A DNA stretch of 58,998 bases from Microbacteriaceae bacterium X2B (GTDB taxonomy: Bacteria; Actinomycetota; Actinomycetes; Actinomycetales; Microbacteriaceae). How positions within the stretch are numbered: the first letter of the stretch is position 1; each line of letters starts with the position of its first letter. The notes under the pieces are model-generated. The model saw only the letters and a list, made by a program, of their open reading frames with translations, did not search any database and had not been told where the DNA came from. This document shows, piece by piece, positions 53,840 through 57,859 of this stretch. Made by a program: the position numbers and the translations under genes. The stretch is taken from NCBI GenBank assembly GCA_005502445.1, contig SCPB01000011.1, positions 1 through 58,998 of the forward strand, read 5' to 3'.

Positions 53840-53860
53840 ATACCCTACCGGGTATACAAT
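53840..53860 (+). promoter_or_regulatory. CsoR/CstR-type operator and leaderless promoter
   Basis: ATACCC-TACC-GGGTAT (53840-53855) is a perfect 16-bp dyad of the CsoR-family G-tract type. It overlaps the -10 box TACAAT (53855-53860), which ends six bases before the ATG at 53867. A repressor here would block the promoter. Confidence 0.75.
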
Positions 53861-53866
53861 CGGGCC

Positions 53867-54331
53867 ATGGGATCGCCGAGAACCGTCGTTGTCGTCGGCG
53901 GAGTGGCAGGCGGAATGTCCGCCGCCACCCGACTCCGACGACTCGATGAGAAAGCGCGCATCATCGTGCTCGAGCGCGGCGAGAACGTCAGCTTCGCCAA
54001 CTGCGGTCTCCCGTCACCGTGTCGGCGGCGTGATCGAGAATCGCTGGCGAGCACGCCGGCTACTGCCCCGAAGCAAGTGCGCTGTCTCTCACGCTCATCT
54101 TCGACGCGGCGACCGATCGCCTCCTCGGAGCTCATGCCGCTCGACGAGTTGCGGGCGCACGCCGAATCGCTGCGCGGCGAGAGCGCGATCGTGCACTGCA
54201 CGGCCGGCCAGCGCGGCCACGTCGCCGCAGCGCTCCTGCGGCAGTACGGTGTGACCGTCGCCAACCTCGACGGCGGCTACCTCACGTGGGCTTCAGGAAC
54301 CGCGGCATCGCGGGCTCCCGTCCGCGCCTGA
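53867..54331 (+). pseudogene. Remnant of CoA-disulfide reductase-like flavoprotein with rhodanese tail
   Basis: The first 50 codons are intact: VVVVGGVAGGMSAATRLRRL (FAD motif) and SFANCGLP with the active-site Cys46. Then a frameshift yields HRVGGVIENRW, a third frame gives GYCPEASALSLTLIFDAATD and RLLGAHAA (dimerisation domain), and the original frame ends with MPLDELRAHAESLRGESAIV and HCTAGQRGHVAAALLRQYGV, a rhodanese domain. An intact gene would be about 1,650 bases; 465 remain, so most of the NADH and middle domains are deleted. The promoter, operator and downstream genes look intact, so the remnant is still transcribed as a leader of the operon. Confidence 0.82.
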
Positions 54332-54362
54332 CCAGACACCACCCGAAGACAGGAGACGACGA

Positions 54363-54683
54363 ATGGCCGACGAGATCACAATCGACGAGCTCGTGACCGA
54401 GATGGCTGCCGGCCCGGTCCCGCTCATCGATGTGCGCGAGCTCGATGAGTACACGGCCGCCCACGTGCCCGGGGCGCGGCTCGTTCCGCTCGGCACCGTG
54501 CCCGAGGCCGTCGACGAGCTGCCGCGCGACGAGCGCGTCTTCGTCATCTGCCATTCCGGAGCGCGCAGCCAGCGCGCGGCGGACTTCCTCCTCACTCGGG
54601 GCATCGACGCCGTCTCCGTCGCTGGAGGAACATCCGCATGGGTGCAGCGCGGGCACGACTACGAGAGCGGAGAAGTCTCATGA
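54363..54683 (+). CDS. Single-domain rhodanese sulfurtransferase
   Basis: Cytosolic rhodanese-like protein of 106 residues that carries a persulfide on Cys63 in VICHSGARSQRAADFL. VPLIDVRELDEYTAAHVPGAR is the conserved N-terminal part. It probably moves sulfane sulfur to acceptors for the downstream dioxygenase. AGGAGA precedes the start. Its TGA overlaps the ATG of cstR, so the two are coupled. The order remnant-rhodanese-cstR is one operon under the operator at 53840. Confidence 0.92.
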   Translation: MADEITIDELVTEMAAGPVPLIDVRELDEYTAAHVPGARLVPLGTVPEAVDELPRDERVFVICHSGARSQRAADFLLTRGIDAVSVAGGTSAWVQRGHDYESGEVS

Positions 54684-54949
54684 CCTCGGTACCCGCGGAG
54701 CAGGCCAAGAAGATCGCCAATCGACTCCGGCGTGCGCAAGGTCAGCTCGCCGCCGTCCTCGCGATGGTCGAGGATGGGCGCGAGTGCCGCGAGGTCGTGA
54801 CGCAACTAGCCGCCGTGTCGAGCGCGATCGATCGTGCGGGTTTCGCCGTCATCGCCTCCGCGATGAAGGAGTGCCTGCGCGACGACACGGGCGACGACCA
54901 GGACATCGAGCTGGCCGACCTGGAGAAGCTGTTCATGAGCCTGTCCTGA
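54680..54949 (+). CDS. cstR: CsoR-family repressor, persulfide-sensing CstR type
   Basis: All-helical DUF156 repressor of 89 residues. The cysteines are Cys36 in DGRECREVVTQ and Cys65 in KECLRDDT, 29 apart as in CstR and CsoR. The position of the CsoR copper-binding His (61) is Ala here, so a copper site is unlikely and persulfide or sulfane-sulfur sensing is favoured. Its own predicted targets are the two G-tract palindromes at 53840 and 56394, which flank its operon. It follows the rhodanese by a four-base overlap. Confidence 0.9.
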   Translation: MTSVPAEQAKKIANRLRRAQGQLAAVLAMVEDGRECREVVTQLAAVSSAIDRAGFAVIASAMKECLRDDTGDDQDIELADLEKLFMSLS

Positions 54950-54969
54950 GTGCGTCGCCCGCCCCGCCC

Positions 54970-56334
54970 TCACGAACGTCGACTGCTGCGCAGTTCGACT
55001 CCGGCGTCGGCGGCATCGTCGAAGCGCGCATCGATGTGCACCGGGTCGAAGCCCGCGCGCTGCAGCAGGCTCGACGCGATCCCGGCGCGGTAGCCGGATG
55101 CGCAGTGCACCCACAGTCGGCCCGCGGGGACCTCGTCGAGCCGAGTGAGCAGTTCGTGCAGAGGGATGTTCTTCGCACCGGGGAGGTGAGCGACCTCATG
55201 CTCGTCGGTGCGCCTGACGTCCAGGATCGCCTCGTTCGCCGGTCGATCGGTCAGCAATCCTCCCCAGTCCGTCCGCGGGTAGCGGGCTGTCCTGCTCTGC
55301 GGAGCGAGGGCAGCGGGGTCGGAGCCGACCGCGACATCCGGTGAGTCGATCCCGATTCGCGAGAGGTCGCGGATGGCGTTCTCGACATCCTCGAGATCTC
55401 CCACGAGAGTGAGGTCCTGCCCCCACGGGAAGAGCCACCCCAGATAGGTCGTGAAGCTCGAGCCGTCACCGTACTCGATGCTCACGGTTCCCTCGAGGTG
55501 ATTGCTCGCGTACGCGACGCGGTTGCGCAGGTCGACCACCCACTCCTCGTCGAGCAGCCGACGGGTCAGTTCGTCCGGATCGATCGATTCGGGCACGACG
55601 AGGGTCGTCGCCCCCGGCCCCCGGATGTTCGAGGGCGCCATGTGCGCGTAGTACGAGGGGTAGGCGGTGAGGTTTGCGATCAACTCCTGGACGAAGTGCT
55701 CGACATCCGAATCAGTGAGAGCGTGGTTGCTCTCGAGCTGCTCGGCGACGGTCGAGGTGGCCGCGCCCGTCGACGGTCCGGAGGAGCAGAACGACCCGAA
55801 GCCGTGGGTGGGATACAGCGCGGCCTCTCGAGCGGCCTGCTCGACGAGCCGGCGAGCGGACGCGTACTGCTGGCGCGTCAGCGTCACGGTGTCGTCGGCG
55901 CTCACCAGGTCGGTGCGTCCGACGGAGCCGTACAGAAGGCTTCCTCCCGAGAAGACCGCCTGCTGCTCGCCCGCCGTCACGATGTACGACAGATGCGTGT
56001 GAGTGTGGCCGGGCGTTGCGACGGCTTTCACGAGCATCGAGCCGACTCTGACGGTCTCGCCGTCGGTGATCGGCTGCCGGTCGAATGAGACCGGGTCGGC
56101 CGCATTCACGAGGTACGCGGCTCCAGCGCTCTGCGCCAGCAGGTAGCCGCCCGTCACATAGTCGTTGTGAATGTGCGTCTCTGCGACGTGCGTGATCCGC
56201 ACGCCGAGATCGGCCGCGGCCTTCTCGACGCGATCGATATCGCGCTGCGGATCGATGACGAGAGCCGCTTCGCCGTCGTGAACGAGGTAGCTGCGGTCGC
56301 CGAGCTGAGGGGTATCGATGACGATGACGTCCAT
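54970..56334 (-). CDS. cstB: Persulfide dioxygenase-like/rhodanese fusion (CstB type)
   Basis: Fusion of 454 residues. Residues 1-200 are a metallo-beta-lactamase/ETHE1-like domain with H54, H56 and D58 (ETHIHNDYVTGG) and H110 (PGHTHTHL); it should oxidise persulfide to sulfite. At the position of the ETHE1 third ligand, Asp in TGDALL, this protein has Gly131 (FSGGSLLYGSVGRTDL). Residues 245-340 form a rhodanese-like domain without cysteine, and 350-450 an active rhodanese with Cys411 (VHCASGYRAG). This three-part plan is that of Staphylococcus CstB. Start ATG 56334 follows AGGAGAGAAG. Confidence 0.92.
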   Translation of the reverse strand: MDVIVIDTPQLGDRSYLVHDGEAALVIDPQRDIDRVEKAAADLGVRITHVAETHIHNDYVTGGYLLAQSAGAAYLVNAADPVSFDRQPITDGETVRVGSMLVKAVATPGHTHTHLSYIVTAGEQQAVFSGGSLLYGSVGRTDLVSADDTVTLTRQQYASARRLVEQAAREAALYPTHGFGSFCSSGPSTGAATSTVAEQLESNHALTDSDVEHFVQELIANLTAYPSYYAHMAPSNIRGPGATTLVVPESIDPDELTRRLLDEEWVVDLRNRVAYASNHLEGTVSIEYGDGSSFTTYLGWLFPWGQDLTLVGDLEDVENAIRDLSRIGIDSPDVAVGSDPAALAPQSRTARYPRTDWGGLLTDRPANEAILDVRRTDEHEVAHLPGAKNIPLHELLTRLDEVPAGRLWVHCASGYRAGIASSLLQRAGFDPVHIDARFDDAADAGVELRSSRRS

Positions 56335-56393
56335 TGCCGGTCTTCTCTCCTGATCGTCGGTCGGCGGAGCGCAGTCGTCCACCGTGGGGAAAA

Positions 56394-56409
56394 ATACCCC
56401 GGGGGGTAT
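56394..56409. promoter_or_regulatory. CsoR/CstR-type operator between cstB and tauE
   Basis: ATACCCC-GG-GGGGTAT is a perfect 16-bp dyad of the same length and end sequences as the site at 53840. It lies 60 bases upstream of the cstB start and overlaps TATAAC (56407-56412), a possible -10 box toward tauE, so it could control both directions. Confidence 0.75.
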
Positions 56410-56563
56410 AACGCTAGACTCTAGCAAGATTTGATGACCCCATGCTCGGACCCCTCGAGCAGTGGACAGACCGGAGTACCTTCATGCCCCCGATCGCGCG
56501 CGACGACGGCCCATCCACCGACGGCGGGCGCGGGTCGGAGATGACACCGGCTCCGCGACCGCG

Positions 56564-56583
56564 AGCCCTCCGAGCGGAGGGCT
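56564..56583 (+). promoter_or_regulatory. Hairpin covering the tauE ribosome site
   Basis: Perfect 8-bp stem, arms 56564-56571 and 56576-56583, loop GAGC. The right arm contains GGAGGG, the only good Shine-Dalgarno match, 8 bases before the GTG start at 56589, so folding would hide it. Confidence 0.5.
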
Positions 56584-56588
56584 GAGGG

Positions 56589-57362
56589 GTGGGCGCGCTT
56601 CTGGCCATCCCGCTCGGGCTCCTCATCGGGGCCGTGCTCGGTCTCGTCGGCGCGGGCGGCTCCATCGTCGCCGTACCGGCGCTCGTCTACGGCGTCGGCA
56701 TGAGTCCCGCCCACGCGATCCCGTCGTCGCTCATCGTCGTGGGGCTCGGCGCGGTCGCCGCGGTCATCCCACGGTTGCGCGGGGGAGTCGACTGGTCGAC
56801 CGCAACTCTCGTGGGGATCGCGGGCATCCCCGCGGCGTGGCTCGGAACCATCGTCAATCGCACGCTCGACCCGCGTGCCGTCCTGCTCGCCTTCGCTGCG
56901 CTCATGGTCGTCGCGGGAGTCCGTATGCTCGCGTCCGGTGCCGCGTCGTCGACCGAGCGCTACGACCCGACATCGACGAGCCGCAGTCGCGTGCCGCGTG
57001 CGCTCGCGGTCGGCCTGCTCGTCGGATTCCTCACCGGGCTCCTGGGCGTCGGCGGCGGATTCATCATCGTCCCGGCTCTCACGCTCCTGCTCGGCCTGCC
57101 GATGGGCAAGGCGGTCGGTACGTCGCTCGTGATCATCGCCCTCAACTCCGCGGGAGGGTTCTCGGCCCATGTGCAGTCCCTCGCGCTCGACTGGCCCGTC
57201 GTGATCGCCTTCGCGGCGACGGCGATCGCGGGCTCGCTCGTGGCCTCGCGATTCGCCGCACGACTGCCGGACAAGAAGGTGAAGACGATCTTCGCGATCG
57301 TCGTCCTCCTGGTCGCGGTCGGGGTCGCCACCGCGAGCGTCGTCGCCCTCGTGACCGGGTGA
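56589..57362 (+). CDS. TauE/SafE family sulfite or sulfur-anion exporter
   Basis: Membrane exporter of 257 residues with about eight hydrophobic segments in two repeats. The family signatures are [18 protein letters not shown] in the first half and [31 protein letters not shown] in the second. In cst loci TauE exports the sulfite or thiosulfate made by the dioxygenase. It is transcribed away from cstB, with the CstR operator about 180 bases upstream. A short open frame (56484-56585) lies in its leader. Confidence 0.9.
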
Positions 57363-57370
57363 GGCAAGCC

Positions 57371-57859
57371 TCAGTCGAGCCGCTTGCCGAGCCAGATCGT
57401 GGCGTTCGGGTTGTCGTTGAACCGCTCGACGAGGGTGAACCCGAGCGAGGCGTAGAGCGCGGCCGCCGCGGTCTGCGCCTCGTGCGTGTCGAGTACGAGC
57501 TCGGCCGCCCCGGTCGCGCGCGCCCGACTCTCGAGCTCGAGCATGAGGGCGCGGCCCGCTCCGAGGCGCCGCGCGTGCGGCTGGATCCAGAGGTGCTTGA
57601 CCTCGAACCGTGAGCCGTGGGGGCCGTCGGAGATGCGCCGGATGCCGCCGCAGCCGACGTCGGCAGGCTCGCCCGCGAGGTTCTCGCCCTCGACGACCAG
57701 GAAGGCGCCGTGCGGCGGCGCGAACTGCGCGGCATCGACCGTGGGTCGCCGGTAGGCACCCTGATCGGCGGGGAACCCCTCGCTGCGCGTCGCGAAGTAC
57801 TGGTCCAGCAGCGCCGCCGCCGCCGGATCGCTCGTCGAGGCCTCGCGGAACGTCACCAT
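57371..57859 (-). CDS. GNAT N-acetyltransferase
   Basis: Acetyl-CoA-dependent acetyltransferase of 162 residues. The core has DVGCGGIRRISDG, then VKHLWIQPHARRLGAGRALMLELESRA (the acetyl-CoA pyrophosphate loop) and AAAALYASLGFTLVERFND. Substrate unknown. It faces tauE with eight bases between stops. TAGGCT on the minus strand (57871-57866) ends six bases before the ATG, a leaderless start, back-to-back with the dapB promoter. Confidence 0.87.
   Translation of the reverse strand: MVTFREASTSDPAAAALLDQYFATRSEGFPADQGAYRRPTVDAAQFAPPHGAFLVVEGENLAGEPADVGCGGIRRISDGPHGSRFEVKHLWIQPHARRLGAGRALMLELESRARATGAAELVLDTHEAQTAAAALYASLGFTLVERFNDNPNATIWLGKRLD

Follow-up and report, generated by a model that had tools for sequence, protein, structure and literature searches.

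The window analysed is the whole 58,998-nucleotide stretch of contig SCPB01000011.1 (positions 1 to 58,998, forward strand) of Microbacteriaceae bacterium X2B, and its subject is a persulfide-defence locus at 53840-57362. Its five gene units are a remnant of a CoA-disulfide reductase (CoADR) gene, a single-domain rhodanese, a CstR-type repressor, a persulfide dioxygenase (PDO)-rhodanese protein and a TauE-type exporter, and they are accompanied by two exact palindromes of 16 bp. The original prediction had named all of these parts, which were found at or near the coordinates that it gave, and both palindromes were confirmed as exact. The genome examined has 2.57 Mb in 113 contigs (99.98% complete); gene identities (Pfam and NCBIfam profile matches), operators, the pseudogene, presence or absence of the PDO/TauE cassette and conservation of operator-gene pairs were computed here, with 25 other genomes of the genus for comparison (26 with this one). 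The locus is a mosaic of a decayed reductive operon and an apparently acquired cassette in which PDO and TauE read divergently from one operator.

Operator 1, ATACCCTACCGGGTAT (53840..53855), and operator 2, ATACCCCGGGGGGTAT (56394..56409), are both exact copies of the perfect palindrome ATACCCN4GGGTAT. The former lies 11 nt 5' of the start codon (ATG) of the CoADR remnant. By eye, a −10 element resembling TATACAAT overlaps it, and the transcript from this promoter may be nearly leaderless. The latter separates PDO from tauE, which read away from each other, and is 59 nt from the PDO start and 179 nt from the TauE start. Palindromes with at most two mismatches in the window: 3 found (2 perfect), 0.24 expected by shuffling; exact sites in the whole genome: 7 found, 0.04 expected from the base composition of the window; the reversed control pattern gave 0 in this genome and 0 across all 26 genomes of the genus.

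The repressor (54680..54949, + strand, 89 aa) belongs to family PF02583 (1.6e-22). CstR proteins keep a cysteine at each of the CsoR positions X and Z and lack the copper-ligand histidine; the present protein carries Cys36 and Cys65 and no histidine at all, and is linked to sulfur genes and to operators of the ATACCN6GGTAT type. Alignment with nine other CsoR-family proteins from the loci placed an alanine of this protein at the histidine of a relative's copper-type CsoR (DDHLKHC in G010; ASAMKEC here). Its solved structural relatives are CsoR-family proteins; the top match, 7mq3, is recorded as copper-sensing and is taken here to be a pneumococcal CstR. The rhodanese gene (54363..54683, + strand, PF00581) encodes the active-site loop C-H-S-G-A-R, with the first residue at 63, and its orthologue holds the same place in the loci of relatives. 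Elsewhere in the genome, contig C34 carries a CsoR-family paralogue (119943-120224; L252:2986-3267) that has a single cysteine and residues of the C-H-H type; G003 and G001 carry genes nearly identical to it (L254, L258).

The PDO gene (54970..56334, − strand) encodes 454 aa with the architecture of CstB, i.e. of a type III PDO: a metallo-β-lactamase (MBL) fold (PF00753), a Cys-less rhodanese-like domain, assigned from alignment and sequence and given no Pfam call, and a rhodanese domain (PF00581). The motifs THIHNDY at 53, TPGHT at 107, GRTDL at 139 and VHCASGYR at 409 were read from the protein, and the HxHxD, TPGH and C-terminal CxxGxR signatures of type III PDO were found together with the Cys-less middle rhodanese; the iron ligands are presumably those of ETHE1, from which their assignment was carried over. 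Residues 11-432 aligned to PDB entry 3r2u and residues 13-431 to 3tp9, both MBL-rhodanese proteins, the first of them taken to be staphylococcal. The exporter gene (56589..57362, + strand, GTG start) encodes 257 aa of the TauE/SafE family (PF01925, 1.1e-50); matches to it at E ≤ 1e-10 were obtained in 2 of the 26 genus genomes, namely this one and G006. Between operator 2 and tauE there is an open frame of 47 codons (56442..56585, + strand, putative translation), which starts 32 nt past the operator, stops just before tauE, lacks cysteine and is a possible leader. The cassette as a whole (54950..57370) is placed between cstR and a GNAT gene (57371-57859, − strand), and no common repeat of more than 8 bp was detected in the 60-bp ends compared. 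A second MBL-rhodanese protein of this genome (C20:6007-7329; L257), 36% identical to the PDO of the window, is encoded about 5 kb from an operator-headed lipoprotein rhodanese gene.

The 154-codon open frame at 53867..54331 (+ strand) is a pseudogene, the decayed first gene of the operon, which formerly encoded a CoADR of the CoA-persulfide reductase type (FAD domain and rhodanese). It matches CoADR at residues 7-49 only and a rhodanese domain at residues 91-142 only. Its ca. 49 N-terminal codons are followed, after a shift of frame, by a piece from the interior of the gene and by the rhodanese domain's C-terminal half; complete FAD/NAD, dimerisation and rhodanese domains were not found in it. 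Compared with the gene of a relative (L086, 1750-base stretch), it has lost two internal stretches, shows a length change of 1 nt and falls into three collinear pieces: L086 positions 57-251 (with the 1-nt difference), a second piece that begins at 1149 and ends within 1206-1249, and a third that begins within 1494-1540 and ends at 1681. The CoADR model TIGR03385 gave no match above its cut-off in this genome, which proves little, since the intact relative (533-residue stretch of L086, 3.6e-120) also misses the cut-off. The locus had been described as complete-looking; because the CoADR remnant is a pseudogene, that description does not hold.

The usual order of the locus in the genus is MPAB (−), operator, CoADR, rhodanese, cstR, GNAT (−). 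At this place, 20 of the 25 other genomes have a CoADR whose alignment covers 533 or more of 554 residues; in 19 of them it is near full length and has no stop, and in G013 (draft, 410 contigs) a single stop interrupts the aligned part. The gene is cut by a contig end in G014 and G021, CoADR is missing from the G018 locus, where a one-mismatch operator stands before the rhodanese, and the cstR locus was not found in G015 and G024. PDO and TauE matches between cstR and GNAT were absent from all 22 relatives' loci showing both genes. Neither this absence nor the decay of an operon gene that is open in most relatives had been noticed in the original prediction. Of the 25 other genomes, G010 alone has a close PDO (78% identity), where it adjoins its own cstR and a CysB gene (one of the small-protein genes described below); other PDO-like proteins (35-36%) occur in this genome (the C20 protein), G001, G006, G008 and G021. 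A PDO tree of 54 rows, hand-chosen from 80 loci plus the genus, pairs the window with G010 at 100/99 inside a clade of 35 rows at 100/100, whose other rows are Micrococcaceae except for one row each of Dermabacteraceae (L193) and Propionibacteriaceae (L181); very near genomes may have been missed by the search behind it. Horizontal acquisition is the most likely origin of the cassette, as judged from these comparisons. Identical PDO proteins were noted in the records of Propionibacterium cyclohexanicum, Kocuria carniphila and Citricoccus zhacaiensis (L181, L182, L204), which suggests either that a persulfide island is mobile or that the assemblies are cross-contaminated.

Beyond what had been predicted, the same operator was found at five further places of the genome. 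All seven exact sites stand before sulfur or thiol genes, or before genes that repeatedly accompany such a site: at the locus, one heads the CoADR remnant-rhodanese-cstR run and the other the divergent pair PDO/TauE; the five distant sites head genes of a DUF4395 membrane protein, a secreted one-domain rhodanese lipoprotein, a thioredoxin (Trx) and two small Cys-rich proteins (CysA and CysB types). Across the 26 genus genomes, 102 of all 113 exact ATACCCN4GGGTAT sites precede a relative of these genes (start within 300 nt), the genomes being related and the sites hence not independent. Within each family the gap between site and gene is tight: CoADR, n = 22, 11-17 nt; Trx, n = 20, 25-27 nt; CysB, n = 19, 28-43 nt; CysA, n = 14, 43-51 nt; lipoprotein rhodanese, n = 20, 35-72 nt; DUF4395, n = 8, −5 to 9 nt. 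The four middle bases of the operator vary and the arms stay, and the target genes lie at unlinked places. In G006 (C1, ca. 1859-1863 kb; L169 / L260) a second cstR stands divergent from one operator-headed run of CysB, CysA, PDO, TauE, lipoprotein rhodanese and Trx, i.e. nearly all of the scattered targets in one row. Two further pairings were noted: an SQR-like (sulfide:quinone oxidoreductase) flavoprotein gene of G020 (L146:2-1447, − strand; weak NCBIfam match to SQR type III) lies 53 nt past an exact operator, and a search with it in the remaining 25 genomes of the genus, among them this one, found nothing at E ≤ 1e-20; in three genus genomes (L118, L135, L149) an exact operator (at 1501) precedes the gene of a lipoprotein with a common SPVGEYAAAASYLAVLD stretch, and the L149 protein has no Pfam family at 1e-5.

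The two small proteins of this genome, encoded on contigs C64 and C19, have 51 aa (L010:2645-2800, + strand) and 38 aa (L007:4068-4184, + strand), each with an exact operator upstream; no significant Pfam or NCBIfam family was obtained for such proteins. They follow the pattern MC-x4-C-x2-CxK-x4-GCG-x-H-x13-C in 37-65 aa, with C2, C7, C10, K12, G17, C18, G19, H21 and C35 invariant among 16 hand-chosen sequences. Among 296 genomes of Actinomycetota they were found in at least 45, a lower bound, at most 22 first-look candidates per genome having been scored; CstR-like genes (E ≤ 1e-10) are present in 104 and both in 33 (33/45; Fisher p = 1.5e-8, relatedness ignored). In 21 of the 45 genomes the two genes are at most 5 kb apart, and in 15 at most 650 nt. 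An operator was present in the fetched stretch of ca. 3 kb at 11 of 22 small-protein loci from genomes with a CstR-like gene vs. 0 of 8 from genomes without one (p = 0.014; 30 of 52 places examined).

The 80 PDO relatives that matched best in named genomes, from Arthrobacter, Kocuria, Streptomyces and Rhodococcus among others, were compared together with flanks of at most 6 kb, less where a contig ends; their gene orders vary. ATACCN6GGTAT was found around 41 of them, a CstR match around 39 and both around 34; TauE was matched around 49, Trx around 20 and the small protein around 13, in nine of which the operator stands within 200 nt upstream of the small-protein gene (nearest at 27-38 nt). 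Rhodanese counts were not used, since the query also matches PDO itself.

The locus and the dispersed sites are read, with a probability of about three in four, as a CstR-run response to persulfide (reactive sulfane sulfur) in which CoADR has decayed and the cassette has been gained; the locus would be its command and disposal centre. CstR would bind ATACCCN4GGGTAT near promoters and repress, and would be released, by analogy with ScCsoR of Streptomyces coelicolor, upon persulfidation or polysulfide bridging of Cys36/Cys65. The usual operon of the genus, CoADR with rhodanese and cstR behind it, would be reductive, CoADR turning CoA-persulfide back into CoA and sulfide. In this strain, with CoADR decayed and the cassette inserted downstream of cstR, PDO would oxidise persulfide to sulfite and TauE would export the sulfite, both under the same repressor, while the rhodaneses would move sulfane sulfur and thioredoxin would reduce persulfides. 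The role proposed in the original prediction, sensing and oxidation of reactive sulfur with export of sulfite, agrees with the protein families, with their residues and with an actinobacterial system already characterised, and is, overall, partly supported. Control of the five unlinked genes by the same repressor through the same operator is the most likely explanation of the sites. The small proteins are proposed to take up or carry sulfane sulfur, perhaps via a Cys3His metal site and two free cysteines. Their place as a new and widespread component of actinobacterial persulfide homeostasis, with genes kept behind CstR operators or beside cstR throughout the phylum, is put forward tentatively and is rather doubtful; they would then be minimal persulfide acceptors or carriers, perhaps zinc-holding treble clefs, through which sulfane sulfur is buffered or passed among rhodanese, thioredoxin and PDO; the predicted structure model is too weak to lean on.

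Several observations weigh against these readings. For four of the 13 small-protein genes next to PDO loci the 200 nt upstream contain no site, 12 of the 45 small-protein genomes have no CstR-like gene at E ≤ 1e-10, and the Fisher value for their co-occurrence takes no account of relatedness. Of the 113 genus sites, 11 have no target from the families listed above; one of these (G007) precedes a P-type ATPase gene, and others, besides the pairings noted above, are near genes that look unrelated. The genome holds two other PF02583 members, the conserved C34 paralogue and a truncated copper-type fragment on C26, and sites of copper-type CsoR/RicR resemble the present operator (PMC7533328). It might accordingly be supposed that another CsoR-family protein, the C34 paralogue or a copper sensor, reads the operators and that CstR controls a part of them only; three PF02583 matches in the genome, copper-type CsoR in some relatives and the G007 site would favour such a supposition. 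It is nevertheless unlikely: the C34 paralogue has, by the authors' own reading, a single cysteine with C-H-H-type residues, neither an exact operator nor a recognised sulfur gene was found in the 6.2 kb around it, the copper-type copy of this genome is a fragment, the seven sites head the sulfur, thiol or recurrently paired genes given above, and the operator is confined to small-protein loci of genomes with a CstR-like gene in the comparison of 22 and 8 loci.

As to the history of the locus, branching inside the PDO clade is resolved only in part and the tree gives no direction of transfer; this direction and the order of CoADR loss and PDO gain are read indirectly, from sequence comparison. 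Loss and gain appear uncoupled, G018 having neither CoADR at the locus nor a PDO match, and G010 carrying both PDO and, elsewhere, a full CoADR. That PDO and TauE are ancestral in the genus, lost by the others and not gained here, would agree with the partly resolved clade, with the 78% identical PDO of G010 and with the PDO-TauE operon of G006, and is held to be improbable: the G010 copy stands at a different place beside its own cstR, the G006 PDO is just ca. 35% identical, no PDO match at E ≤ 1e-20 was obtained in 20 of the 26 genus genomes, and the cstR-GNAT interval is free of both genes in all of the 22 relatives. The CoADR frame might, finally, be alive as a short chimeric protein of 154 codons or as a translated operon leader, being open throughout and keeping the start, the nucleotide-binding loop, Cys46 (presumably the catalytic cysteine, from its position) and the CTAGQRG loop of the rhodanese; with ca. 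70% of the gene gone, the middle part in the wrong frame and both domains incomplete, there is little chance of this. Should the preferred reading, a CstR-run response with decayed CoADR and gained cassette, be true, one repressor would have kept its regulon while the chemistry of persulfide disposal was swapped from reductive to oxidative, with the old enzyme half erased; a concrete CstR regulon, larger than the four-gene circuit of Streptomyces, would be available for an actinobacterial genus, and very small Cys-rich proteins of an unnamed family would join the defence against sulfane sulfur.

The cst operon of Staphylococcus aureus is tauE cstR cstA cstB sqr. The likeness to it that had been proposed holds for CstR, TauE and the three-domain CstB-type PDO; it does not extend to CstA and SQR, neither of which was seen (for SQR, the single SQR-like query, from G020, found nothing in this genome at the threshold given). 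The rhodanese here is single-domain, unlike the multidomain sulfurtransferase CstA, and gene order and transcription units differ. The usual operon of the genus shares CstR, rhodaneses and a CoADR-rhodanese enzyme with the cst-like operon of Enterococcus faecalis (PMC9405070), a reductive precedent in which CstR controls CoA-persulfide reductase (CoAPR) and two rhodaneses; CoAPR is functional there, whereas CoADR here is a pseudogene, and the available part of that account names no PDO or TauE. TTHA1953 of Thermus thermophilus (PMC10318464) is likewise a CsoR-family repressor of dispersed sulfur genes, including thioredoxin, and differs in its TACNNTACNNNNGTANNGTA motif and its Sox pathway targets. 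The circuit of S. coelicolor (ScCsoR-ScPDO-ScRhod-ScTauE; PMC7533328) fits better than that of S. aureus. Binding of ScCsoR to ATACCN6GGTAT by electrophoretic mobility shift assay (EMSA), its release by polysulfide and the need for both cysteines are reported there, and the same operator and the same four functions were shown by EMSA and reverse transcription quantitative PCR. Common to both are a two-cysteine CstR-like repressor, the 16-bp ATACCN6GGTAT operator heading the units, PDO-rhodanese, rhodanese and TauE, in separated transcription units with separate operators, and the split layout, which had been thought unusual, was accordingly already described in that organism. PDO and TauE are co-transcribed in S. 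coelicolor and divergent here; csoR and rhod are arranged there around a common intergenic operator region, whereas cstR here follows the decayed CoADR and the rhodanese; and five unlinked operator-bearing genes stand here in addition to the four controlled genes described there. The kind of system is known and had been recognised correctly in the original prediction; its recent history is unusual, and its predicted regulon exceeds those of the papers cited here.

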